Assembly (NCBI GenBank): GCA_031257175.1
Contig: JAIRPE010000101.1
Coordinates: forward strand, 1 to 33,019
Direction: 5' to 3'
Source: Eubacteriales Family XIII. Incertae Sedis bacterium
GTDB taxonomy: Bacteria; Bacillota; Clostridia; Peptostreptococcales; Anaerovoracaceae
DNA length: 33,019 nucleotides
Below the pieces are notes generated by a model. The model made no database searches and was not told the DNA's origin. It worked only from the letters and a program-made list of their open reading frames with translations. The translations under genes were made by a program, and so were the position numbers. Of the stretch, positions 259 to 26,004 are shown in pieces. Each line of letters begins with the position of its first letter. Positions within the stretch are counted from its first letter, which is position 1.

Positions 259-433
259 TGCCCGGCGACCGACTTAAAATTTGATGAGGCACGGAGGGAA
301 AAGCGGCACGGCAAGAATCACAAGGCGATGTCGGAGGATAGGTTTTTTGAAGTCCCCCGCAGGAGGCTTCAGTTTTAGGGGCCAGTCGGCGCGGGAAGCG
401 CCGTCTCCCTTGAAAAGGAAAGGAAGGTTTTTT

Positions 434-3400
434 ATGGGAAATTTAAAAAAACTCATGAGTATCGTGACGGCTTGCGCCACGCTTTTTGGCGCACAGACTT
501 TCGTATCCGCCTCTCCGTTGCCTGACGCCTCGACCGCCCAGTCGATAAACCTCGACTTAGGAGGCGCGAAGCTGAAGATCCAGGCATATGCGGACGACAT
601 TGTGCGTGTCCGGTATTCGCCGGACGGTAATTTCCTGACGAAGGATTTTGATGACGACAGGTACATAGCCACGTTCGTTGACCCAAAAGCCGACTTGGCG
701 CCGATAGACATGCAAATAACCGATGACGGCGCGGTTGTAACCGCCAAAACCGCCAAGCTGGACATCAGGGTGAACAAATCGACGGGCGCGGTTTCTTACT
801 ATGACAAGGAAGGCGCCCTTATACTGGCCGAAAAGGATCGAACATTCAGTCCTGCCGGAGTCGGCGGCCGGGATGTTTTCAGCGTGACCCAGCGGTTCAG
901 CTCGCCTGCCGCGGAGCGCCTGTATGGCTTCGGCAACGTAAATGAAAAACTCGGGCTCAAAGGCGATAATGTTTCTGTCCGCCAGACGAACACAGGGAAA
1001 CGTACGCCTATGTTCGTGTCGAACCTTGGTTACGGCATACTGTTTGACATGACTTCAAACGGTTCGCTTAACTGGGCGGACGGCAACGCCACGTATGGCT
1101 ATACGGCCAGCGCCGCCGACTCGATGGATTACTACTTCTTCTACGGCCCCGAAGCGGATGCTGTTGTCGCGGATTACCGCAAGGTGACAGGTCAGGCCAC
1201 CATGCTGCCTAAGAGCGCGTTCGGCTACACCCAGTCGCGCAACCGCTATGCGTCGCAGACGGAGCTTGTCAGCATAGTCAACCAGTTCAGAGAGAAAAAG
1301 ATACCGCTTGACACGATAGTGATCGACTACTACTGGTGGAACGGGGGGTTCAACAACATAATGGAGGCAAGCTCCAACTGGAACAACCTCGCAGGCACGA
1401 TGAACACGTTGCACGATAAAAATGTGTCTGCGTCTATATCCATCTGGCCCTCCTTTGATCTGGGGACTACGACGTCCAATTACTTGCAGTCCAACTATCC
1501 GGGGATACTTCTGACATCCGACAGCGGCGGATTCGGCGGCACGCGTTACGATCCGTCGTCTGACGCGTACAGAAAAGCTTACTGGAAGCTTATCAATGAC
1601 CATGTTTTCAGCAAAGGCTTGGATTCTATCTGGCTTGACGCATGTGAGCCGGAAGCGGGCACGTGGGCTTCGAACGGGACGAATTTGCAGGTAGCCTACG
1701 GAAACGCGCGTCCGATCGGCGCTATATACCCGTTATTGACTAACAAGGGCGTTTATGAGGGGCAACGCTCCGAACCCGGCAACACGAAGCGCGTTAACTC
1801 TCTGTCCAGGGGCGCGGTCGCGGGCATACAGCGCTACGGGATCCAGAGCTGGTCGGGCGACATCGCGTCCGGCTTCGATTCGTTGCGGGCGGAAATCAAA
1901 GGCGTCCTCAACTTCTCAGCGGCAGGACTCCCATATTTCTCGACGGACACGGGCGGATATTTCACTTTTAACAGCGCTGACGGGAACGGGCGGGAGATGT
2001 TTCTGCGCTGGCTCCAGTTCTCGACGTTCAACAGCATTATGCGCGTACATGGCGAGAACGCCGGCGGCGGCAATAACCGTGAGCCGTGGCAGTTCGGCGG
2101 CGAATACGAAAAATATATCACGAGTTACATAAACCTGCGCGAGAGGCTTATGCCGTATACCTATTCGCTGGCAGGGAAGGTCACGCAGGACGGGTACACC
2201 ATGGTGCGTCCGTTGGTGTTCGATTTCAGGCAGGACGCGGACGCGATAAATGTTCAGGATCAATTTATGTTCGGGCCGTCGCTCCTCGTAAACCCCGTTT
2301 ACACGTTGGGCCAACGGGAAAAGAGCATTTATCTCCCTGCCGGGCGGTGGGTGGATTTCTGGACTGGCGTTGCCACGTCGAGCGCGGGGCAGACGTTCAC
2401 GGCGAAAGCCCCCCTTGACAAATTGCCGCTGTTCGTGAAGGCCGGCTCGATCATTCCTATGGGCCCGTTCATCCAGTACGCCGAAGAATCGGCCGATCCG
2501 ACGGAAATCCGCGTGTATATGGGCGATAACGGCAAGTTCACGCTCTACGAAGACGAAGGCGGCAACTATAACTACGAGCAAGGCAAGTTTTCCGAGATTC
2601 CCTTCGAATGGGACGAGGCTTCTAAGACCCTCAAAATAGGGGCTCGTTCGGGAAGCTTTGACGGAATGTTGGAGAATCGCGTGTTTAACCTGGTTTTCGT
2701 TCAGCCGGGATACGGCACGGGAGTAGATCTGTCATCGAAATATCAGGCGACCGTGAATTATGACGGGAATGCGGCACAGGCGGTTTTTAACCCTGACTGG
2801 AAAATTCCGCTTCCTCCCATAGACCCGGAAACCCTGCCCAAGCCCGAACCTGCCCCAAAACCGCTGACTGCGGCAAAATCCATGGTAGGAGAGTGGTTGT
2901 TTGAGGAAGGCGAGGGACTGCGCATAAAGGACACGTCCGGCCATTTCAACGACGGCGGGTTGGTGACGTCGGACTCAAATGTCTGGAGGGAAGGCAAGTC
3001 GGGCCTGGCCCTAAATTACACTGGCGGCGGGAACACGTTTGTTCAGGCGAACAATAGCGAATCTTTGCAAATCACGAATGAAGTCACTTTTTCAGGATGG
3101 ATTTACCCGCAGTCAGGCAGTTCCAATTTCAGGTTCATTATGAGCAAAGGCGGCAATGACGGCCCCAACCCTGGGTATCCCGGATTTTGCCTGCTCCTGG
3201 CCAATAACGCTAACAACAGGCTGCAGTTGGAGATGCAGACGGCAAAAAACGCGTCAGGAGCCACGAGCAAATCGACCATTGCCATGTCAAGCGGCAGCAT
3301 TCCCTATGACCAATGGACGCATGTGGCGTTTACTTGGAAAGGAGCGGCGGCAGGAGGCGACGGGATTGCTCGAATTTATGTCAACGGCGCGCAGGCGGCT

Positions 3401-5782
3401 TCCGGAAGTTTCAGCGGCCCGATTGGCGTGAACGACGAGCCGCTCAATATTGGACGCAACAGCGCCAATAACAGCGGCTATCCGCTATGTTTCTATGGCT
3501 CTATTGACGAGGCGCGTCTGTTTAATTACGCGCTGACCCAAGATGACATAGTCAAGCTTGCCAATATGCAAAACGTTTCCGCGCCCAATCCCCGGAATAT
3601 AAGCGTCACGCCCGGCGATTCCGCTTTGACCGTGACATGGGACGATCCCGTTGAAGCTTCGCTTGAGCGCGTAATAGTTTCATGCGCCCCCCATGACGGC
3701 GGCGCCCCTATGGTGTTCAATGTGCCAAAAGGCGTCGGATCGCAGGCGATAACAGGATTGGAAAATGGGAAATACTACCAAGTGCTTCTCCAGTCTGTTC
3801 TGAGCGGCGGAATGACTTCAGAGGGCGTATATGTCGTCGGTCGCGCCGCGCCGTACATGTCCGCCGTTGAAAACGCCGTTATTTATGACAGCGACGTATA
3901 TGGGTATGTCGTAAACAATTCCGGTCGGAGTCTTAGCGGCAAAGTCAAGGCTGAAGTGTTTGAAGGAGGCGTAGAGCCTGTAAAAACGACGATTTTGGAC
4001 AATTTCATTGTCGCTGGAATGGATATGCTTAGGTTTAAGGCGGATATTGGCGATTTTGTAAGCGGGCAGACAGTGAAGCTTTCCTTCGTCGATGAAAACG
4101 GCGAGGCTCTTTCGGGAACAGTGACGCTTGTTCGCCGTCAGACGGTTCCGCCGATTGACCCTGACATGTTGCCGAAGCCGGATCTTCCGTCGGTCGTGAA
4201 ACCGGACGCGCCCGCCAGGGCTATGGTCGGCGAATGGCTGTTCGAGGAAGGGACAGGCACGAAAATTAACGACACGTCCGGTCTTGGCAACGACGGCGTT
4301 CTAAAAGCCTCGAACGCGAACGTGTGGGCGGTAGGCGGCGGCAAACAGGGCTCGGCGTTGAACTATGCCGGCGGGGGCAACACGTTTGTGGAGATAGCGA
4401 ACGGCGAATCGTTGCAAATCGCGGACGAGATAACGTTTTCAGGTTGGATACGCCCGTCGAGCGGCAACTCCGGCTACAGATTCATCGCCGCCAAGGGCGG
4501 CAACGACAGCGGCCATCCGGGATATTGCCTGTTGTTGCAGAACAACGCAAACAACAGGATTCAACTGGAGATACAAACGCCTAGGAACAGTTCCGGCGCC
4601 ACTGTGAAATCGACGGTCGCCGCTAACGCCAACATACCCTACGACCAATGGTCGCACGTGGCGTTCACATGGAAAGGCCAGGCGGCCGGAGGTGATAGCG
4701 TCGCAAGGTTGTACGTCAATGGGGCTGAGGTCGGCAGCGGGAGTTTCGTCGGGCCGATAGGAGTCAATGACGAGCCGCTGAACATCGGTCGCAACAGCAC
4801 GAATAACGCCGGATACCCACTGTGCTTTTACGGGCTTATCGATGAGACGAGACTGTTCAACTACGCGCTGACGCGGGACGAGATAGTGGAACTGGCAAAT
4901 ATGCGGAGAGTCACGGCGCTTAACCCGCAAAACGTAAAAATAGTTCCCGGCGACAAGAGCGTCGTGGTTACATGGGATGATCCTGACGAGGAATCCTTGG
5001 AGCGTGTCAATGTGGCCTGCGAGCCATACGCGGGCGGGACGGCGCAAAGCTTTTCGGTAGGCAAGGGCATCGAGACGCTCACGATAACCGGATTAGAAAA
5101 CGGTGAGTACTATCGGGTGCTTTTGCAGAGCGTTTTGGACGACGGGCGCACGTCAAGCGGCATATACGCCGTTGGAAAAGCCGCGCCGTTCCTAGCCGGA
5201 ATTGAGGCTGCGGTCACCCATGGCGATAAGCTTTATGGCTATGTGGTGAACAACGCGGCGACAAGCCTGAGCGGAAAGCTTGTGGCGGAAGTGTTCAAAA
5301 GCGGCGCCTCGACGCCGATAAAAACCGCCGTCGTCGAAGATTTGGCCATCGAGCCGTTGGGGATGACTAGCTTCGTGGCGGACTTGGGAGAATACGATGA
5401 CGATCAGAGCGTTAAAATTTCCTATATCAGCGGCACGGATGAAGATTTGGCTCAGCCTACGATCATCAGGCGTACTCTGATTTATGGCGGTTATTCTGAT
5501 TATCAGATATGCGGTTACGGTCTTTCGGAGGATTCTGTGGGAACGGTGACGGTTGTGGCGAAAGGCGGCCGCGCGGCATTTTTGATCGTCGCCGCCTACG
5601 ACGCGGCGGGCAGGCTCATAGACTCCAGAACCGCGAAGCTGTCACGGGCCGACAGCCCGAAGGCGTACGCCGTCGATTTCAGCTTAGTCGGCGCGGCGAG
5701 AGTCAGGGCGTTTATCTGGAGCGACACGTTTGCCCCATTAGCGGAGCCGTTGGATATAGCGTGGCGGAACAGGCAGAACTAG
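434..5782 (+). CDS. Secreted family 31 glycoside hydrolase with two LamG modules
   Basis: A 1,782-residue exported enzyme, predicted to hydrolyse alpha-glycosidic (glucosidic or xylosidic) bonds outside the cell. The ATG at 434 is chosen because AGGAAAGGAAGG lies just upstream and because it begins a clear signal peptide (lysines, hydrophobic core, cleavage near VSA-S at about residue 27); an open frame upstream has neither. The GH31 barrel spans about residues 255-640. It contains WLDACEPE with the likely nucleophile Asp402 and WSGD with the likely acid/base Asp476. The DUF5110-like beta region follows. From residue 794 there are two copies of a LamG, Fn3-like and beta-domain unit, then a final domain of about 100 residues. 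There is no SLH domain or sortase signal, so how it is held at the surface, if at all, is unclear. Substrate specificity cannot be read from the sequence. Confidence 0.9.
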   Translation: MGNLKKLMSIVTACATLFGAQTFVSASPLPDASTAQSINLDLGGAKLKIQAYADDIVRVRYSPDGNFLTKDFDDDRYIATFVDPKADLAPIDMQITDDGAVVTAKTAKLDIRVNKSTGAVSYYDKEGALILAEKDRTFSPAGVGGRDVFSVTQRFSSPAAERLYGFGNVNEKLGLKGDNVSVRQTNTGKRTPMFVSNLGYGILFDMTSNGSLNWADGNATYGYTASAADSMDYYFFYGPEADAVVADYRKVTGQATMLPKSAFGYTQSRNRYASQTELVSIVNQFREKKIPLDTIVIDYYWWNGGFNNIMEASSNWNNLAGTMNTLHDKNVSASISIWPSFDLGTTTSNYLQSNYPGILLTSDSGGFGGTRYDPSSDAYRKAYWKLINDHVFSKGLDSIWLDACEPEAGTWASNGTNLQVAYGNARPIGAIYPLLTNKGVYEGQRSEPGNTKRVNSLSRGAVAGIQRYGIQSWSGDIASGFDSLRAEIKGVLNFSAAGLPYFSTDTGGYFTFNSADGNGREMFLRWLQFSTFNSIMRVHGENAGGGNNREPWQFGGEYEKYITSYINLRERLMPYTYSLAGKVTQDGYTMVRPLVFDFRQDADAINVQDQFMFGPSLLVNPVYTLGQREKSIYLPAGRWVDFWTGVATSSAGQTFTAKAPLDKLPLFVKAGSIIPMGPFIQYAEESADPTEIRVYMGDNGKFTLYEDEGGNYNYEQGKFSEIPFEWDEASKTLKIGARSGSFDGMLENRVFNLVFVQPGYGTGVDLSSKYQATVNYDGNAAQAVFNPDWKIPLPPIDPETLPKPEPAPKPLTAAKSMVGEWLFEEGEGLRIKDTSGHFNDGGLVTSDSNVWREGKSGLALNYTGGGNTFVQANNSESLQITNEVTFSGWIYPQSGSSNFRFIMSKGGNDGPNPGYPGFCLLLANNANNRLQLEMQTAKNASGATSKSTIAMSSGSIPYDQWTHVAFTWKGAAAGGDGIARIYVNGAQAASGSFSGPIGVNDEPLNIGRNSANNSGYPLCFYGSIDEARLFNYALTQDDIVKLANMQNVSAPNPRNISVTPGDSALTVTWDDPVEASLERVIVSCAPHDGGAPMVFNVPKGVGSQAITGLENGKYYQVLLQSVLSGGMTSEGVYVVGRAAPYMSAVENAVIYDSDVYGYVVNNSGRSLSGKVKAEVFEGGVEPVKTTILDNFIVAGMDMLRFKADIGDFVSGQTVKLSFVDENGEALSGTVTLVRRQTVPPIDPDMLPKPDLPSVVKPDAPARAMVGEWLFEEGTGTKINDTSGLGNDGVLKASNANVWAVGGGKQGSALNYAGGGNTFVEIANGESLQIADEITFSGWIRPSSGNSGYRFIAAKGGNDSGHPGYCLLLQNNANNRIQLEIQTPRNSSGATVKSTVAANANIPYDQWSHVAFTWKGQAAGGDSVARLYVNGAEVGSGSFVGPIGVNDEPLNIGRNSTNNAGYPLCFYGLIDETRLFNYALTRDEIVELANMRRVTALNPQNVKIVPGDKSVVVTWDDPDEESLERVNVACEPYAGGTAQSFSVGKGIETLTITGLENGEYYRVLLQSVLDDGRTSSGIYAVGKAAPFLAGIEAAVTHGDKLYGYVVNNAATSLSGKLVAEVFKSGASTPIKTAVVEDLAIEPLGMTSFVADLGEYDDDQSVKISYISGTDEDLAQPTIIRRTLIYGGYSDYQICGYGLSEDSVGTVTVVAKGGRAAFLIVAAYDAAGRLIDSRTAKLSRADSPKAYAVDFSLVGAARVRAFIWSDTFAPLAEPLDIAWRNRQN
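2813..4147 (+). repeat. GH31 accessory unit, copy 1 (LamG, Fn3-like, beta domain)
   Basis: This unit of 445 codons starts at the linker PPIDPETLPKP and ends at VTLVRRQT. The LamG part (MVGEWLFEEG to about 3560) is a concanavalin-like carbohydrate-binding fold. It is followed by an Fn3-like part with VTWDDP and ITGLENGKYY, and a third beta domain with YGYVVNNSG. It is paired with the following unit. Confidence 0.85.
4148..5476 (+). repeat. GH31 accessory unit, copy 2
   Basis: This unit of 443 codons begins at PPIDPDMLPKP and ends at PTIIRRT. It follows copy 1 domain by domain. Many codons differ while residues are kept, for example at GVNDEPLNIGRNS, which points to an old duplication held by selection on the protein. 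Confidence 0.85.
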
Positions 5783-16748: not shown

Positions 16749-16853
16749 ACGTTATTGAACGTTGGCGAGAAACGCGGAACGGCGTGTTCGGCCGTCGTTC
16801 AATGCGATGTTTTGAGCTATTGGTTATTATTGTAAGAGAAAAGGAGATTAATG

Positions 16854-17885
16854 ATGAAAAAAGGATGCCCATTCGGCACGCACAGGGTCATTTCGCCCAA
16901 AGGCGTGCTGCCTCAGCCCGCAGACGTGATTGACAACAGCATGGAGATTTACGACAACGAGGTTCTCATCGACGTCCAGACCTTGAACGTCGATTCGGCC
17001 AGCTTCACCCAGATCGAGAAGCAGGCGAAGGGCGACGTGGAAGAAATCAAGAAAATCATGAAAGGCATAGTGGCGAAGGCCGGCAAGCACAAGAATCCCG
17101 TGACCGGCTCGGGCGGCATGCTTATCGGCACGGTCAAGGAGATAGGGCCGGCGTACAAGGGCAGCCTGAAGGTGGGGGACAAGCTGGCCACGCTGGTCTC
17201 GCTCTCCCTCACGCCGTTGGTCATAAAGGAGATACACGAGGTCAGGCCCGACATAGACCAGGTGGACATCACGGGCCAGGCCATACTGTTCCAGAGCGGC
17301 ATATACGCGGTGCTGCCCAAGGACATGCCTGAGACACTGGCGCTGTCCGTGCTGGACGTGGCGGGGGCCCCCGCGCAGGCGGCCAGGCTGGTGCAGTCGG
17401 GCGACACGGTGGTGGTCATAGGCGGCGGCGGCAAGTCAGGGCTTCTTTGCCTCCACGAAGCCAAGAAGAGGGCCGGCGTGACGGGCAAGGTCATATGCGT
17501 GGGCGGCAGCGAGAAGTCCACGGACAGGGCCAGAAAGCTGAACCTGGCGGACGAGTATTTCGCTTTCGACGCCACCGACGCGGTGGGGCTCTACAACAAG
17601 ATTTCAGACCTCACCGACGGCAAGCTGGCGGACGTGGTCATAAACTGCGTCAACATAGAGAACACCGAGATGTCGTCAATACTGGCCTGCAGGGACAGGG
17701 GCACGGTGTACTTCTTCTCCATGGCCACCAGCTTCACGAAGGCCGCCCTGGGCGCGGAAGGCGTGGGCAAGGACGTGAACATGATTATCGGCAACGGCTA
17801 CTGCAAAGACCACGCGGACATATCGCTTCAGGTGCTGCGCGAGAACCCGGCGCTCAGGAAGCTGTTTGAGGAGATGTACGCCTGA
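16854..17885 (+). CDS. kdd: L-erythro-3,5-diaminohexanoate dehydrogenase
   Basis: Third enzyme of lysine fermentation: oxidative deamination of 3,5-diaminohexanoate to 5-amino-3-oxohexanoate with NAD(P). The 343-residue protein has a medium-chain-dehydrogenase-like layout with the nucleotide-binding VVVIGGGGKSG at 186-196, and reads as Kdd along its length (for example the N-terminal GTHRVISPKGVLPQPA). AGGAG lies seven bases before the ATG at 16854; a tandem ATG at 16851 is possible. It is first in the locus, directly behind the sigma-54 promoter. A gap of 194 bases containing a dyad and a possible second promoter separates it from kamA. Confidence 0.92.
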   Translation: MKKGCPFGTHRVISPKGVLPQPADVIDNSMEIYDNEVLIDVQTLNVDSASFTQIEKQAKGDVEEIKKIMKGIVAKAGKHKNPVTGSGGMLIGTVKEIGPAYKGSLKVGDKLATLVSLSLTPLVIKEIHEVRPDIDQVDITGQAILFQSGIYAVLPKDMPETLALSVLDVAGAPAQAARLVQSGDTVVVIGGGGKSGLLCLHEAKKRAGVTGKVICVGGSEKSTDRARKLNLADEYFAFDATDAVGLYNKISDLTDGKLADVVINCVNIENTEMSSILACRDRGTVYFFSMATSFTKAALGAEGVGKDVNMIIGNGYCKDHADISLQVLRENPALRKLFEEMYA

Positions 17886-18079: not shown

Positions 18080-19348
18080 ATGGCAGCGATTAGAAATTGG
18101 AAAGACGTCCCGCTTTGGAAAAACGTAAGCGACGAGGAATGGAACGATTGGCTATGGCAGATAAGGAACAGGCTTTCCAGCGTGGATGAGATAAGGCAGG
18201 TGGTCAACCTGACCGATCAAGAGGCGGCGGACATCGAGAAGGTCATGGATGGCTTCCGTGTGGGCATAACGCCCTATTACGCCTCTTTGATGGACCCGGA
18301 CGACCCCAGATGCCCGGTTAGGATGCAGGCGGTGCCCACCATAGCCGAGACGCGCAGGGGCGCGGGCGACATGGAGGACCCCCTCCACGAGGACGAGGAC
18401 TCCCCCGCGCCGGGCCTGACGCACAGATACCCTGACAGGGTGCTGTTCCTGATAACGGACCAATGCTCCATGTACTGCCGGCACTGCACCAGGCGCAGGA
18501 TGGCGGGCGAGCATGACGGCGCCAGGAGCAAGGAGGACATCGAGAAGTGCTTGGAGTACATCAGGAAGACCCCCGTGGTCAGGGACGTGCTGCTCTCGGG
18601 CGGCGACTGCCTCTGCGTGTCGGACGAGTTCCTGGAGTACGTCATAAGCGAGCTGCGTAAGATACCCCATGTGGAGATAGTGCGGCTGGGCTCCAGGACG
18701 CCCGTGGTCATGCCCATGCGCATAACGGACAACCTGGTCAACATGCTGAAGAAATACCATCCCATATGGCTGAACACGCATTTCAACCACCCCAAGGAGA
18801 TGACGCCTGAGGCGCAGGAGGCCGTGCGCAAACTGGCCGACGCGGGCATCCCCCTGGGCAATCAGAGCGTGCTGCTTCGCGGGCTGAACGACTGCCCCCA
18901 CATCATGCGCGATCTGGTGCATGTGCTGGTGAAGAACAGGGTCAGGCCGTACTACATTTACCAATGCGACCTTTCCTTGGGAATAGAGCATTTCAGAACC
19001 AAGGTGTCCAAGGGCATAGAGATAATAGAAGGGCTGCGGGGGCACACCTCGGGCTTCGCGGTGCCCACCTTCGTGGTGGACGCGCCCGGAGGCGGCGGCA
19101 AGACGCCCGTCATGCCCCAGTACGTCATTTCCCACACGCCCAAGAAGGTGGTGCTGCGCAACTATGAGGGCGTCATAACCTCGTACACGGAGCCGAAGCA
19201 CATGGAGGACATACCCTGCACCTGCGATTACTGCACGGGCAAGAAAAAGTACGAATACGAGGGCGTGGCGGCCATATCGGTGACGGACAAATTGTCCATA
19301 GAGCCTGCCGACCTGGCGAGGCACAAGCGGAACAGCATGAAGAAATAG
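18080..19348 (+). CDS. kamA: L-lysine 2,3-aminomutase
   Basis: A radical-SAM, PLP-dependent enzyme that converts L-lysine to L-beta-lysine, the first step of lysine fermentation. The 422 residues fit the family. The iron-sulfur motif CSMYCRHC gives Cys129, Cys133 and Cys136. The PLP lysine is Lys341 in PGGGGKTP. Zinc-site cysteines of the family are present: Cys272 in NDCPH and the C-terminal CTCDYC. The substrate-binding stretch reads SGGDCLCVSDE, with two cysteines where well-studied enzymes have Ala and Leu. The start at 18080 has AAGGGG about eight bases upstream. EF-P-modifying EpmB relatives are shorter and lack the C-terminal zinc cysteines, so KamA is the better call. Confidence 0.96.
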   Translation: MAAIRNWKDVPLWKNVSDEEWNDWLWQIRNRLSSVDEIRQVVNLTDQEAADIEKVMDGFRVGITPYYASLMDPDDPRCPVRMQAVPTIAETRRGAGDMEDPLHEDEDSPAPGLTHRYPDRVLFLITDQCSMYCRHCTRRRMAGEHDGARSKEDIEKCLEYIRKTPVVRDVLLSGGDCLCVSDEFLEYVISELRKIPHVEIVRLGSRTPVVMPMRITDNLVNMLKKYHPIWLNTHFNHPKEMTPEAQEAVRKLADAGIPLGNQSVLLRGLNDCPHIMRDLVHVLVKNRVRPYYIYQCDLSLGIEHFRTKVSKGIEIIEGLRGHTSGFAVPTFVVDAPGGGGKTPVMPQYVISHTPKKVVLRNYEGVITSYTEPKHMEDIPCTCDYCTGKKKYEYEGVAAISVTDKLSIEPADLARHKRNSMKK

Positions 19349-19359
19349 CGGGGTGCGCG

Positions 19360-20499
19360 TTGGGACTGCTGCGGGACATTGCGAGGGAGCATAAGACAGT
19401 CTCCCTGGTGGGGATGGCCAAGAACGCGGGCAAAACCACGGCCATGAACTACCTGATAGCCCAGGCCGAGGACGAGGGCGTCAGGCTGGGAGTCACGTCC
19501 ACCGGGAGGGACGGCGAGTCCGTGGACGTGGTGACGGGCACGGAGAAGCCCAAGGTCTACCTGACGGAGGACACGCTGGTGGCGGTTCCCGCGGGGCTTT
19601 ACGACCTTTCAGGCGCGGGGCTTGAGATACTGCGCATGACGGAATTTTCATCGCCTCTGGGGCAGGTGATGCTGTGCAGGGTGGCCGAGGCGGGCTACGT
19701 CCAGGTGGCGGGGCCCGTGACCACGGCCGGCCAGAGGCGGATTTGCGCGGAAATGCTGGCGGCGGGCGTGGATTTGGTGCTTATAGACGGGGCCATAGAC
19801 CGCAAATCCATAGCGGCGCCCGACGCCTCGGACGCCATAATACTGTCCACGGGCGCGGCCCTGTCCCGCAACATGACCAAGGCGGCCGAGGAGACGGGCT
19901 ACGCGACGGAACTGTTCGGCCTGCCCGTGCTGGAGGACGCGGCGGCGCGGGAGGCCATAGCGGCCAGGCCCGACAGGCTTCTGGCCATAGGCTCGCCTGC
20001 GGGCGGCGCGGCGGGCGGGGCGCTGGCCGTGCCTCTGGAGATGAAAACGGGGCTTCGGGCAGGCGCGAGGATTAGGGAGGCGCTGGCGGTTTTCGACAAG
20101 GCCGAGGCAGGGGGCGGCGCCAGGGCGGACAAGGCCAATGAGGGCGGCGGGGGCTCGCGGGGCGGGGCCTCGGGGGCTGACGGCAAAAGCGGCGCGGGGA
20201 TGTTCTACATATACGTGCCGGGGGCGCTGACCGACGGAATGCTGTCGGGTCTGGAGCCTAAAACCCTCAGCGGCGCGGCGTTCGTGGTCACGGACCCCAC
20301 GAAGATATTTTTGGACAGGCTCAACTACAAGCGGCTCAAGGCCAGAGGGCTGAGGATTTTCACGATGGCGGGGGTGAAGGTGGCGGCAGTCACCGTGAAC
20401 CCCACCTCGCCCGAGGGCTATTCCTTCGACAGCGGCGAGTTCATCGAGGCGGTCAGGGCGGTGACGGGCGGAATCCCGGTGATAGACGTGCGGATGTGA
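19360..20499 (+). CDS. kamB: KamB, lysine 5,6-aminomutase-associated P-loop protein
   Basis: A 379-residue protein found in lysine-fermentation operons next to KamC. It has a Walker A motif GMAKNAGKTT (18-27) and an acidic strand LIDGAID (141-147) that may act as Walker B. Some annotation resources call KamB and KamC a reactivating system for lysine 5,6-aminomutase; I know of that as a naming proposal and the sequence only shows that nucleotide binding is likely. Residues about 248-280 are an unusual Gly/Ala-rich linker between the P-loop half and a C-terminal domain. The start is TTG at 19360 after GGGGTG; it is 11 bases behind kamA and overlaps kamC by four bases. Confidence 0.8.
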   Translation: MGLLRDIAREHKTVSLVGMAKNAGKTTAMNYLIAQAEDEGVRLGVTSTGRDGESVDVVTGTEKPKVYLTEDTLVAVPAGLYDLSGAGLEILRMTEFSSPLGQVMLCRVAEAGYVQVAGPVTTAGQRRICAEMLAAGVDLVLIDGAIDRKSIAAPDASDAIILSTGAALSRNMTKAAEETGYATELFGLPVLEDAAAREAIAARPDRLLAIGSPAGGAAGGALAVPLEMKTGLRAGARIREALAVFDKAEAGGGARADKANEGGGGSRGGASGADGKSGAGMFYIYVPGALTDGMLSGLEPKTLSGAAFVVTDPTKIFLDRLNYKRLKARGLRIFTMAGVKVAAVTVNPTSPEGYSFDSGEFIEAVRAVTGGIPVIDVRM

Positions 20500-22142
20500 A
20501 ACATATGTTGGCAAGCGAAAGAACCAAGAGGGAATTAGGCTTTCTGGACGTCCTGTCGAGGGTCAGGCCGCGCAGCCCCTTCGGCAAGCGGCGCATGGAC
20601 AATCTCATGCCCTACATGCCGGGCGACGAGGCCAGGCTGGAGGGCGAGCTGGACAGGCTGGAGCGCATGTGCCGCGTCTCCCTTTCCCATAGGCAGGAAT
20701 GGGAGGGGCTGGCGGCGGTTTTCCACGCCATGAAGGACGTCAGCGCCACTATAGAGCGCAGCAGCCACGAGACCTTGAGCGTGGTGGAGCTGTACGAGGT
20801 CAAGGCGCTGCTGCTGCAGATGGAGGAGTCGCGGGCCATAATAGCGGGCATGGGGGACGGCTGGCCGTCCAATCTCACCCCGGCGGCCGCTGACGGCCTG
20901 CTGGATTTGCTGGACCCCGAAGGCAGCCGCCTGCCCGCTTTCTATATTTACGACCAATTTTCGGAAAAACTAGCAAATTTGCGCAAAGAGAAGAAGGACA
21001 AGGAACTGGCGCTGCGCAGGGAGCAGAAGAAGCTGGCCGAGGAGGCGGAGGCCCGTCTGGGCATAAAGCTCTCCCCCAAATTCGACGCGTCCGTCCCGCG
21101 AAGCGAGACAGAGAAGCTGGCCGCCGCCGAGTCGTCCCCTTTGCTCCAGGTGGGGGGCGAGGATTTCTCGTCGGTGACCTTCCAACTGCGGCTGGGCGCG
21201 GAGGGCAGGCGGCTGACGGCTGAGGCGGACACCATAGGGGCCCTGGTGGAGGACGAGGAGCTGGCCGTAAGGAAGAGGCTCTCAAAGGAGGTGGCGAAGT
21301 ACGCCCCCCTGTTGCTGAAGAACTGCCGCGTCATAGGGGACGCGGACTTCGTCATGGCCAAGACGGATCACGCCATACGCCACGACTGCGTGAAGCCCGG
21401 CGTGGTGCGCATACACACCCTGCGACTGGAGGACGGCAGGTATCTGCCACTGGAGCGCCTGCTCCGCGAGAAGGGCCAGGATTATTCGCCTGTGAGCATT
21501 TTCCTGGACGAAGGGGTGTCCTGCATCACGGGCGCGAACATGGGCGGCAAGACGATTTCCATGAAGCTGGCGGGCCTGGTGGCGCTGATGGCGCAGCACG
21601 GCTTTTTCGTGCCCTGCAAGTCGGCCTTCGTGGGGCTTTCCTCATCGGCGCACATACTGATAGGGGACAGCCAGGACATGCAGAAGGGGCTTTCCAGCTT
21701 CGGCAGCGAGATGGAGGGCCTGGGGGAGATATTGTCCAAAAGCGGCGAGAAGGCGCTGATTTTCATCGACGAGATAGCCGGCTCCACGAATCCCGCTGAG
21801 GGGCGGGCGCTGACGAAGGCGCTGATAGGCTATCTGTCGAAGAGGCCCTACATAACGCTGATGACCACCCACTTCGAGAGGGTGGCCGAAGGGGCGGGGG
21901 TGGTGAACCTGCGCGTGCACGGCCTGTCAAGCGCGGACTTCGACCGCCTGTCGGCAGAGCTTAGGAACGCGGGCATCAACGACAGGATAGAAATCATCAC
22001 CAGGTTTATGGATTACAGATTGGAGAGGGTGAACGGCGGCGCGGAGATTCCCAAGGACGCATTGCGCATAGCGGAGATACTGGGGATAAAGCGCGAGATA
22101 ATAGATGGGGCGAGGGAGATATTGGAGGCGCAGGCCCAATGA
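20496..22142 (+). CDS. kamC: KamC, MutS-type ATPase of the lysine-fermentation operon
   Basis: A 548-residue protein with a helical core and clamp-like region (a probable coiled coil at about 155-190) and a C-terminal MutS-family ATPase: Walker A GANMGGKT (346-353), Walker B LIFIDEIAGSTNPAEG (421-436) and a TTHF motif. The N-terminal mismatch-recognition and connector domains of MutS are absent, and so is the Smr nuclease of MutS2. Its place between kamB and kamD points to a role in handling the B12-dependent aminomutase, such as ATP-driven release of damaged cofactor; that is an inference. The start is GTG at 20496, overlapping the kamB stop; an ATG at 20505 is the alternative, and neither has a strong ribosome site, so coupling to kamB is likely. 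Confidence 0.85.
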   Translation: MKHMLASERTKRELGFLDVLSRVRPRSPFGKRRMDNLMPYMPGDEARLEGELDRLERMCRVSLSHRQEWEGLAAVFHAMKDVSATIERSSHETLSVVELYEVKALLLQMEESRAIIAGMGDGWPSNLTPAAADGLLDLLDPEGSRLPAFYIYDQFSEKLANLRKEKKDKELALRREQKKLAEEAEARLGIKLSPKFDASVPRSETEKLAAAESSPLLQVGGEDFSSVTFQLRLGAEGRRLTAEADTIGALVEDEELAVRKRLSKEVAKYAPLLLKNCRVIGDADFVMAKTDHAIRHDCVKPGVVRIHTLRLEDGRYLPLERLLREKGQDYSPVSIFLDEGVSCITGANMGGKTISMKLAGLVALMAQHGFFVPCKSAFVGLSSSAHILIGDSQDMQKGLSSFGSEMEGLGEILSKSGEKALIFIDEIAGSTNPAEGRALTKALIGYLSKRPYITLMTTHFERVAEGAGVVNLRVHGLSSADFDRLSAELRNAGINDRIEIITRFMDYRLERVNGGAEIPKDALRIAEILGIKREIIDGAREILEAQAQ

Positions 22143-22293: not shown

Positions 22294-23853
22294 ATGAGCA
22301 AACTGAATTTAGACCCTGCGGTCATCGAGAGCGCCAGGGGCTGCGCGGCGAGGATAGCCGCCAGCGTCCAGAGCTTCATCGAGCGCCACACCACGGTCAG
22401 CACGGAGAGAACCGTGGCGCGGCTGTTGGGCGTGGACGGGGTGGATGAGATGGAATCGCCGCTTTCCAACGTGCTTATCGACCAGCTGAAGGAAGCCGGG
22501 GTTTTGAGCAGGGGGGCCGCCTACTGGATAGGCAACGCCGCCATAGCCACCGGCCTTGGCCCTCAGAAAATCGCCGAGGAAGCGGCGGCAGGCAGGCTGG
22601 ACGTGACCAAACTGCCCGCCGCGCCCGTGAAGGACGCCGAGAGCGCGGTCATGCCCATAGCGAAAGAGGCGCTGGCGGCCATCAAGAAGCAGCGGGCCGA
22701 CAGGGAGAGGATGATAAAGGACATAGGCGAGGGCCGGCAGCCCTACCTCTACGTCATAGTCGCCACGGGCAATATCTATGAGGACGTGGTGCAGGCCCAG
22801 GCGGCCGCCAGGCAGGGCGCCGACATCATCGCGGTCATAAGGACCACGGGCCAGAGCCTGCTGGACTACGTGCCCTACGGCGCCACCACGGAAGGCTTCG
22901 GCGGCACCTACGCCACCCAGGAGAACTTCCGCATAATGCGCAAGGCGCTGGACGAGGTGGGCGACGAGGTGGGCCGCTACATAAGGCTCTGCAACTACTC
23001 CTCAGGCATGTGCATGCCCGAGATCGCGGCCATGGGCGCGCTGGAGAGGCTGGACGTCATGCTGAACGACGCCCTGTACGGCATACTCTTCCGCGACATC
23101 AACATGCAGAGGACGCTGGTGGACCAGTTCTTCTCCAGGGTGATAATAGGCTACAGCGGCATAGTGTTCAACTCAGGCGAGGACAACTACCTGACCACCG
23201 CGGACGCCTTCGAGGAGGCGCACACGGTGCTGGCCTCCCAGTTCATAAACGAGCAGCTGGCCGTGCTGGCGAACATACCCGAAGAGCAGATGGGCCTGGG
23301 GCACGCCTTCGAGATGGACCCGTCCATCGAGGACGGCTTCCTCTACGAGCTGGCGCAGGCCGTCATGGCCAGGGAGATTTTCCCCAAGGCGTCGCTGAAA
23401 TACATGCCGCCCACGAAATTCATGACGGGCAATATCTTCAAGGGCCACATCCAGGACGCGCTGTTCAACCTAATAGCCGTCTGGTCGGGCCAATCCCTGC
23501 AGCTTCTGGGGATGCTGACGGAGGCCATACACACGCCCCATCTCCAGGACAGGTTCTTGTCAATAGAGAATGCTTCTTACATTTTTAATAACGCGAGGAA
23601 TTTAGGGGAAGAAGTGGAATTCAAGAAAGGCGGCATCATCCAGAAGCGGGCGGCGCTGGTTCTGGGCGAGGCGGACAAGCTGCTGCGCCAGATAGAGGCG
23701 GACGGGCTGTTCGCCACCATAGAGCAGGGCAAGTTCGGCGGCGTGAAGCGCGCCAGGGACGGCGGCAAGGGGCTGGAAGGCGTCGTGGTGAAGCACGGCG
23801 AGTATTTCAACCCGTTCATCCCGCTCATGCTGAAGGGAGGCGATGCGATATGA
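22294..23853 (+). CDS. kamD: Lysine 5,6-aminomutase, alpha subunit
   Basis: Large subunit of the adenosylcobalamin- and PLP-dependent enzyme that moves the terminal amino group of beta-lysine to carbon 5, giving 3,5-diaminohexanoate. The 519 residues form the TIM-barrel subunit; the sequence reads as KamD throughout (for example GATTEGFGGTYATQENFRIM). AAGGAGG stands six bases before the ATG at 22294. The preceding 151-base gap (22143-22293) is very GC-rich until an AT-rich stretch just before the ribosome site; I see no clear promoter in it. It overlaps kamE by four bases (ATGA), fitting a tight two-subunit complex. A short AT-rich island occurs inside the gene at about 23560-23640. Confidence 0.95.
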   Translation: MSKLNLDPAVIESARGCAARIAASVQSFIERHTTVSTERTVARLLGVDGVDEMESPLSNVLIDQLKEAGVLSRGAAYWIGNAAIATGLGPQKIAEEAAAGRLDVTKLPAAPVKDAESAVMPIAKEALAAIKKQRADRERMIKDIGEGRQPYLYVIVATGNIYEDVVQAQAAARQGADIIAVIRTTGQSLLDYVPYGATTEGFGGTYATQENFRIMRKALDEVGDEVGRYIRLCNYSSGMCMPEIAAMGALERLDVMLNDALYGILFRDINMQRTLVDQFFSRVIIGYSGIVFNSGEDNYLTTADAFEEAHTVLASQFINEQLAVLANIPEEQMGLGHAFEMDPSIEDGFLYELAQAVMAREIFPKASLKYMPPTKFMTGNIFKGHIQDALFNLIAVWSGQSLQLLGMLTEAIHTPHLQDRFLSIENASYIFNNARNLGEEVEFKKGGIIQKRAALVLGEADKLLRQIEADGLFATIEQGKFGGVKRARDGGKGLEGVVVKHGEYFNPFIPLMLKGGDAI

Positions 23854-24614
23854 CTAAGACGGCAGGTTCCGCAGTTGATTTGACGAAGGTGAAGCCCTAT
23901 GGCGACACCATGAACGACGGCATGACGGAGCTGACGTTCACATTGCCCGTGCCTTACGGGCCTGAGGCCGACGAGGCGGCCAGGCAGCTGGCCAGGAAGA
24001 TGGGGCTGGACGAGCCGAACGCGGCTTTTTCCAAGGATTTGGGCCAAGGCTTCACCTTCTTCGTGGTATACGGCAAGTGCCAGCACTCCGTGGACTTCAC
24101 GACCATAAAGGTGGCCAAGGCGGACGTGGAGGTGATGAGCAGGGAAGAATGCCAGGACTACATCGCCAAGAACATCAAGAGGGACGTGGTCATAGTGGGC
24201 GCCACCACGGGCACGGACGCCCATACCGTGGGCATAGACGCCATCATGAACATGAAGGGCTTCCACGGGCATTACGGATTGGAGAGGTACAAGGGGATAG
24301 AAGCGGTGAACCTGGGCTCCCAGGTTCCCAACGAGACGCTGGTGGCCAAGGCCATAGAGCTTAACGCGGACGCCATCATCGTGTCCCAGATAGTGACCCA
24401 GAAGGACGTCCACGTGCTGAACCTGACGAACCTGGTGGAGCTGGTGGAGGCCGAGGGCATAAGGGACAAGGTGGTGCTGGCCTGCGGCGGCCCCAGGATT
24501 TCCTACGAGCTGGCGCAGGAACTGGGCTATGACGCGGGATTCGGGGCGCACACCTACGCCGAGGACGTGGCCTCCTTCATCCTGACGGAGGTAGTGAGGC
24601 GCGGGCTGGTATAG
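23850..24614 (+). CDS. kamE: Lysine 5,6-aminomutase, beta subunit
   Basis: Small, cobalamin-binding subunit of lysine 5,6-aminomutase, 254 residues. The B12 signature is DAHTVG, with His125 as the expected lower axial ligand. Lys136 in NMKGFHG is the expected PLP-binding lysine: it lies eleven residues after the histidine, the same spacing as His133 and Lys144 in the Clostridium sticklandii enzyme. The Rossmann-like domain extends to the end. The start overlaps the kamD stop (ATGA), so equal production of the subunits by coupled translation is likely. Confidence 0.95.
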   Translation: MTKTAGSAVDLTKVKPYGDTMNDGMTELTFTLPVPYGPEADEAARQLARKMGLDEPNAAFSKDLGQGFTFFVVYGKCQHSVDFTTIKVAKADVEVMSREECQDYIAKNIKRDVVIVGATTGTDAHTVGIDAIMNMKGFHGHYGLERYKGIEAVNLGSQVPNETLVAKAIELNADAIIVSQIVTQKDVHVLNLTNLVELVEAEGIRDKVVLACGGPRISYELAQELGYDAGFGAHTYAEDVASFILTEVVRRGLV

Positions 24615-24685
24615 CTAGCGGAGCGGAGCGGCGGCGCGGGGCCTTTTAGGGCCTCTCGCGGGCCGTGACGCGGGAGGGAGTTTTT

Positions 24686-25366
24686 ATGAAAGACAAGATA
24701 AAGACCGCTGACGAAGCCGTCTCCATGATTGGCGACGGGGCGGCCGTGATGGTGGGCGGCTTCATGGCCTGCGGCACGCCTGAAATTTTGATTGACGCGT
24801 TGGTCAGGAAGGGTTCCAAGAACCTCACCATCATCTGCAACGACGCGGGGGTGCCCGGTAGGGGCGTGGCCAAGCTTTTGACCAACGGGCAGATAAAGAC
24901 GCTCATAGCCTCCCACGTGGGGCTGAACCCCGAGGTGGCGCAGCGCATGAACACGGACGTGCCCGAGGACAAGCTGGAATGCCTGCTGATCCCCCAGGGC
25001 ACCCTGGCTGAGAGGATAAGGGCCGGCGGCTGCGGCCTGGGCGGCTTCCTGACGCCCACGGGCGTGGGCACCATCGTGGCCGAGGGCAAGCAGGTCATCA
25101 CCCTGGACGGGCGGGATTATTTGCTGGAGCTGCCCCTGCGGGCGGACTACGCCCTCATCAGAGGCAACGTGACCGACAAGTTCGGCAACACCACCTACCA
25201 CGGCACGACCCGCACCTTCAACCTCATGATGGCCACCGCGGCCGAGCATGTGATAGTGGGTACCTGCAAAATCGTGGAGGTGGGGGAGATAGACCCCAAC
25301 TCCGTGGTGACGTCGGGGATTTTCGTGGATTCCATCGTGGGAGGTGAGCAACCGTGGCAGATATAA
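24686..25366 (+). CDS. atoD: Acetoacetate-type CoA-transferase, alpha subunit
   Basis: A 226-residue family I CoA-transferase subunit, with the glycine-rich [19 protein letters not shown] near the N-terminus. In lysine fermentation the partner pair moves CoA between butyryl-CoA (or acetyl-CoA) and acetoacetate released by Kce. The start at 24686 follows GGAGGGAG; a GTG seven codons upstream has no comparable site. It lies 71 bases after kamE and overlaps atoA by 13 bases. Exact acyl specificity cannot be read from the sequence; acetate or butyrate CoA-transferase activity is possible. Confidence 0.88.
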
Positions 25367-26004
25367 AGGAGATTATCGCGGCAAGGGTGGCGAAGGAGCT
25401 GCATGACGGCGACGTGGTGAATCTGGGCATCGGCCTGCCCACCATGGTGGCCGACTTCCTGCCCGAGGGAGTCAGCATCATCCTCCAGTCCGAGAACGGC
25501 ATAATGGGCATGGGCCCGGCGCCCGAGCCGGGCAAGGAGGACGTGGACATAGTCAACGCCGGCGGCCAGTGCGTGACCATAGTCCCGGGCGCCATGTTCT
25601 TCGACAGCGCCACCTCCTTCGGAATCATACGGGGCGGGCACGTGGACGTGACGGTGCTGGGCGCCCTGGAGGTGGACGAGAAAGGCAATCTGGCCAACTG
25701 GATAGTGCCAGGCAAGATAGTGCCGGGCATGGGCGGCGCCATGGACCTGGTGGTGGGCGCGCGCAAGGTGGTCATAGCCATGACCCACACCCAAAAGGGC
25801 AAGCCAAAGATTCTGAAAAGCTGCACCCTGCCCTACACGGCGGTGGGCGTGGTGGATTTGATAATAACGGAGATGGGCGTGATGGAAGTGACCCCCGAGG
25901 GCATAGTCCTGAAGGAGCTGCACCCGGACTACACGGTGGAGCAGGTGAAAGAGGCCACGGAGGCCACGCTCCTGGTCAGCCCTGATCTGAAGGTCATGGC
26001 GTAG
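25354..26004 (+). CDS. atoA: Acetoacetate-type CoA-transferase, beta subunit
   Basis: A 216-residue catalytic subunit of the same family I enzyme. The expected CoA-thioester-forming glutamate is Glu47 in [11 protein letters not shown], and [14 protein letters not shown] is a typical later motif. The start is GTG at 25354 with GGGAGGTG seven bases upstream, inside the end of atoD. It is the last gene of the lysine locus; the genes kce and kal that accompany it in other lysine fermenters do not follow. Confidence 0.9.

Follow-up and report, generated by a model that had tools for sequence, protein, structure and literature searches.

KamB and the MutS2-like ATPase KamC beside a B12-dependent lysine aminomutase: a probable reactivase pair in which KamC is optional

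Gene content of the lysine-fermentation locus

The window, meaning the whole stretch of 33,019 nucleotides analysed here (contig JAIRPE010000101.1 of an Eubacteriales Family XIII. Incertae Sedis bacterium), contains a lysine-fermentation operon in which kamB and kamC are located between kamA and kamD/kamE. The gene run consists of the following components:

16851-17885, + strand: kdd, 3,5-diaminohexanoate dehydrogenase, sharing a pathway with the kam genes (NF052381, 266 bits)
18080-19348, + strand: kamA, lysine 2,3-aminomutase, a radical SAM enzyme (TIGR03820, 624 bits)
19360-20499, + strand: kamB, P-loop NTPase of 379 residues, TTG start (NF052386, 329.8 bits)
20496-22142, + strand: kamC, MutS2-like ABC-type ATPase of 548 residues, GTG start (NF052383, 516 bits; Pfam MutS_V)
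22294-23853, + strand: kamD (NF052384, 903 bits)
23850-24614, + strand: kamE (NF052385, 402 bits; Pfam OAM_dimer and B12-binding)
24665-26004, + strand: ctfA/ctfB, acetate/3-oxoacid CoA-transferase subunits at the end of the gene run (TIGR02429 and TIGR02428, above cut-off)

The kamB and kamC reading frames are found exactly where the initial annotation had placed them, directly before the B12 aminomutase genes as it had stated. KamB matches its family model in two stretches (cut-off 210 bits) and KamC aligns to positions 2-508 of the 508 positions of its model (cut-off 300 bits). As KamD, KamE, KamA and Kdd also each exceed their own NCBIfam cut-off, chance can be excluded as an explanation of these identities. 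A gene of the BKACE family, to which the pathway enzyme Kce belongs, is encoded on a different contig of the same genome. Scanning the window at the Rfam gathering threshold yielded no riboswitch and no other RNA family, and a search against an anti-phage defence library gave no match. Just upstream of the lysine-fermentation genes, the product of positions 15279-16502 matches the S-layer homology domain three times. Elsewhere in the window, positions 281-5782 encode an 1833-residue protein combining glycoside hydrolase family 31 with Laminin_G_3/ConA-like lectin domains.

The four-base overlap coupling kamB to kamC, which the initial annotation had emphasized, is present in the window if the GTG at position 20496 serves as the kamC start. 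The ATG at position 20505 fits the N-termini of homologues equally well and would instead result in a five-base gap. Since a four-base overlap was found in only 10 of 107 loci, it is not conserved and was rejected as a sign of co-function. The TTG start of KamB is consistent with a conserved MGLL N-terminus.

The two families are named lysine 5,6-aminomutase reactivase subunit KamB and reactivase ATPase KamC in NCBIfam release 20.0 (June 2026). Both window proteins score well above the respective cut-offs and show the identical gene order with kamDE; apart from an extra Gly-rich linker that its relatives do not have, KamB exhibits nothing of note. A 2011 paper (PMC3149608) already depicts a mutS gene in kam clusters, and a review counts MutS-like proteins of adenosylcobalamin operons among the candidates for assembling metalloprotein complexes in an ATP-dependent manner (PMC9164220). 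Given the existing reactivase name and the published assembly idea, the little-known status initially attributed to the pair was overstated: the core interpretation of KamB and KamC as a reactivase pair is not new and the window pair represents ordinary family members. Searches of the open-access literature returned no experiments on KamB or KamC and no primary paper behind the NCBIfam reactivase name, which may itself rest on genomic context. Lysine 5,6-aminomutase is known to undergo suicide inactivation (PMC12429584), and an accessory protein, E2, is responsible for aminomutase reactivation and ATP-dependent regulation (PMC9081730). We infer that E2 corresponds to KamBC.

Domain architecture of KamC and KamB

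KamC shows the hallmarks of MutS superfamily ATPases in its domain V, namely a Walker A motif (TGANMGGKT), a signature-like loop (GLSSFGSEM), a Walker B motif (FIDE) and an H-loop (H459), in agreement with the original observation that the MutS Walker motifs are retained. Residues K352, S400, D425, E426 and H459 are identical across all aligned homologues. The sole Pfam match is MutS_V (domain V, residues 343-467). Overall, KamC consists of a helical lever carrying a clamp-like insert at about residues 190-232, followed by the ATPase domain V, and is devoid of mismatch, KOW and Smr domains. A profile built from 24 KamC homologues aligns to residues 4-454 of Bacillus subtilis MutS2 (PDB ID: 7qv3, E 5.9e-54); besides a short weak match at 490-515, the alignment ends at residue 454. 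The AlphaFold2 model of KamC (pLDDT 88.6) retrieves MutS and MutS2 structures in Foldseek with E-values of about 1e-25 and TM-scores of about 0.7. By profile and fold, KamC therefore matches the core of about 450 residues found in MutS2 of B. subtilis and Thermotoga maritima (9kce).

KamC and MutS2 are also alike in lacking the mismatch-recognition domain I. However, KamC differs from MutS2 in the absence of a C-terminal KOW/Smr end, in its score (182 bits, the MutS2 cut-off being 400) and in being confined to KamD genomes. It likewise falls far below the level of mismatch-repair MutS (127 bits on NF003810, cut-off 480), and no KamC residue aligns to MutS domains I and II (mismatch-recognition and connector). 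The initial annotation was thus correct that the mismatch domain is missing, but because KamC is MutS2-like and MutS2 is also without this domain, its absence sets KamC apart from MutS alone, says little, and was rejected as evidence. Separate genes for MutS (886 residues) and MutS2 (794 residues) are present elsewhere in the same genome, their products reaching 197 and 207 bits on the KamC model (cut-off 300), so KamC is not needed as a repair protein. In MutS, the clamp segment is a part that contacts DNA. The KamC proteins of three loci (L021, L026 and L030) are without the clamp-like insert, which in other KamC proteins spans about 60 residues.

Because the whole MutS2 core is common to KamC and a protein whose structure was solved on collided ribosomes (7qv3), KamC could conceivably be a MutS2-like nucleic-acid or ribosome factor that merely resides in the operon, contributing for example to translation quality control of kam mRNA. 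We consider this very improbable, as KamC tracks KamD in every KamC genome of the sample described below, has no C-terminal KOW and Smr domains, has lost the clamp-like segment in some lineages and coexists with a full MutS2 in the same genome.

KamB contains a Walker A motif (GMAKNAGKT, residues 18-26) and this P-loop is, save for minor variants, invariant among aligned homologues. No match to KamB was obtained in Pfam or PHROGs, and PDB sequences gave only weak MobB matches around the P-loop. The AlphaFold2 model has a pLDDT of 87, with residues 255-278 falling below 50; the low-confidence region corresponds to the Gly-rich linker at about residues 245-280. Foldseek returned weak matches to SIMIBI-class proteins (best E 4.5e-3, probability 0.99, TM-score 0.2), among which SRP GTPases rank above MMAA/MeaB (2www, 3tk1, 2qm8 and 3p32; E 0.011-0.053). 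As none of these matches falls below E 0.001 and SRP GTPases rank higher, they suggest an NTPase class only and give no more than a hint that KamB is a SIMIBI-class NTPase.

The fold matches bear on the main rival explanation, according to which KamB is a cofactor-loading chaperone, similar to MeaB/MMAA or to metallochaperones, that protects KamE and loads it with adenosylcobalamin; KamC would then be an optional assembly aid and removal of damaged cofactor would be secondary. MeaB/MMAA, the G-protein chaperones of methylmalonyl-CoA mutase, are P-loop NTPase helpers of a B12 mutase as KamB is, but share no significant sequence match with it and appear among its weak fold matches only. Cofactor loading would be in line with KamB being the constant partner of the mutase and with the view of MutS-like proteins as metalloprotein assembly candidates (PMC9164220). 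However, TM-scores near 0.2 and the higher-ranking SRP GTPases weaken the comparison with MeaB and MMAA, and although sequence does not separate loading from reactivation, we regard loading as the primary role as unlikely.

Distribution of KamB and KamC among KamD genomes

Co-occurrence was analysed in 349 Bacillota genomes, several of them incomplete, with presence defined by profile score; all counts thus refer to a sample of one phylum and to close relatives of the window. KamD exceeds its cut-off in 66 of the 349 genomes, KamC in 37 and KamB in 80. All 37 KamC genomes also encode KamD, usually as the next gene. A clear KamB is found in 65 of the 66 KamD genomes, a few being below the curated cut-off but adjoining kamD. 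Further, 80 related loci show the order KamA-KamB-KamC-KamD-KamE as far as their contigs reach, and ctfA/ctfB end the gene run in the same order in 46 of these 80. The presence of KamD in every KamC genome and the conserved order bear out the initial proposal of a MutS-family ATPase dedicated to a B12 enzyme.

KamC is not a universal component of these systems. The 29 KamD genomes scored as KamC-negative, together with one genome in which KamD is split (G175), were searched a second time with scores for all candidates, and in none of the 30 did a KamC exceed the cut-off. One genome (G392) was left out of the KamC absences because its kamC is present in broken frames, leaving 28 KamD genomes of the 349-genome sample without KamC. 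In G392 (locus L174), not only kamC but also kamA is broken up into overlapping frames, a pattern that suggests assembly errors and not gene loss. KamB occurs in each of the 18 KamC-less loci that were read, mostly directly adjoining kamD, and no shared replacement for KamC was seen among them. Nearly all of these 18 loci contain kdd and most contain genes resembling kce and kal, the latter two named by length and sequence start only; these loci therefore look like working lysine-fermentation operons. With no fewer than 28 KamD genomes lacking it, KamC cannot be essential to KamDE in general, and the central role initially assigned to it is not supported, as KamB persists in its absence and KamB relatives also occur beside another B12 protein.

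The sole KamD genome of the 66 without a clear KamB (G105) encodes, between kamA and an intact kamC, a 296-residue KamB-like protein without a P-loop (L173:4684-5571, - strand). Judged by sequence, KamC seems to work there with a KamB unable to bind nucleotide in the usual way.

A KamB tree, generated with a quick method and SH-aLRT support only, requires three changes of KamC presence, of which strongly supported branches force only one; within family f81, one genome has KamC and one does not. Repeated loss or gain of KamC is consequently likely, though not proven.

Since kamA is located directly upstream in most related operons, KamB and KamC might instead have KamA, the radical SAM enzyme, or another pathway member as their target in place of KamDE. 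The arrangement of other loci makes this hardly credible: among KamC-less loci, KamB is found near KamD with no KamA in the stretch examined in L122-L124, L128, L129, L131, L137 and L138, while in L127 and L136 KamA is encoded on the opposite strand at a distance of a few kb, and no kamA-like gene is among the conserved clusters around the KamB relatives that neighbour a B12 protein.

Proposed reactivation of KamDE and helpers of other B12 enzymes

The best reading of these data is that B12 radical mutases have KamB as their core P-loop helper, with KamC as an optional motor derived from MutS2. Specifically, we hypothesize that KamB and KamC are quite probably the two subunits of an ATP-dependent reactivating chaperone of KamDE, the coenzyme-B12 enzyme lysine 5,6-aminomutase, with KamB as its core. 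Turnover would self-inactivate KamDE, leaving a damaged, non-adenosyl cobalamin bound. KamB, the constant partner, would dock on the mutase, and KamC, acting as a dimer, would draw on ATP binding and hydrolysis to force open the mobile B12 domain on KamE, so that damaged cobalamin could leave and fresh adenosylcobalamin bind. When KamC is absent, KamB alone may carry out a slower or milder version of this process. The families, ATPase motifs, dedication to KamD genomes, gene order, MutS2-like fold and optional nature of KamC are observed here, and from them we infer the physical KamB-KamC-KamDE complex, its dimerisation and docking site, the order of events and cobalamin release.

Reactivation is favored by the NCBIfam equivalogs, by the presence of KamD in all KamC genomes as compared with 66 of 349 overall, by the near-constant KamB and the kept gene order, by the invariance of both NTP-binding sites in aligned homologues and by the missing clamp-like segment in several KamC proteins. 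The known suicide inactivation (PMC12429584) and the reactivating E2 protein (PMC9081730) point in the same direction, as do the separate helper of OraE and the KamB relatives beside another B12 protein, both described below. Counting against it are the KamD genomes without KamC or any replacement in the loci read, and the KamC of G105 beside a degenerate KamB-like protein.

The window pair typifies the use of a motor fold of the DNA-repair type in the service of a metabolic enzyme. What is new comes from the comparison: two versions occur naturally in lysine fermenters, one with both KamB and KamC and the other with only KamB, and comparing such operons therefore offers a way to test what the MutS-like motor does.

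The job proposed for KamB and KamC, using ATP to exchange damaged cobalamin on a B12 radical enzyme, is like that of the diol and glycerol dehydratase reactivases DdrAB/GdrAB and of EutA, but these are not MutS-like, and KamB and KamC show no match to them in Pfam or NCBIfam. For OraE, the closest relative of KamDE, all 10 of 10 loci have a GlmL-type gene either next to it or separated from it by a single gene, without KamB or KamC; the one such gene scanned belongs to NF040744. This family comprises the GlmL-type Or-4 of ornithine 4,5-aminomutase, which likewise lies beside a closely related B12/PLP aminomutase but belongs to the unrelated Pfam MutL family (PF13941). Related B12 aminomutases therefore use unrelated helpers.

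KamB-like proteins form a separate clade in the KamB tree (support 99) and are clearly homologous to KamB by profile comparison (E 5e-57). Twenty KamB-like loci (L142-L161), mostly from genomes without KamD, were compared, and in 18 of them the KamB-like gene is accompanied, mostly as the adjacent upstream gene, by one for an unnamed protein of about 610 residues, for example:

L154:6384-8216, - strand: B12 protein of about 610 residues, with similar genes in 17 other loci among L142-L161

No KamC was found among the conserved neighbours of these loci. The N-terminus of the protein is a B12-binding domain closest to that of KamE (PDB 8t0v_C, E 1.8e-12). Its C-terminal 472 residues matched no Pfam or NCBIfam model, but hhalign aligned them to 383 columns of the KamD profile with a probability of 84 and a score of 52, whereas reversed or shuffled KamD profiles scored at most 24. 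On balance, we favor the view that KamB proteins are general P-loop helpers for at least two B12 enzymes, KamDE and this probable mutase of about 610 residues, a single-chain protein whose C-terminal region is a relative of the KamD barrel, with KamC gained or lost several times within KamDE operons. The KamB relatives also draw attention to a B12 enzyme family that has no name and merits assignment. Genes for an FAD oxidoreductase, a PLP-fold enzyme and a protein of about 81 residues as well as permease-like genes are found nearby, and the protein of about 610 residues possibly belongs to an undescribed B12-dependent mutase pathway.
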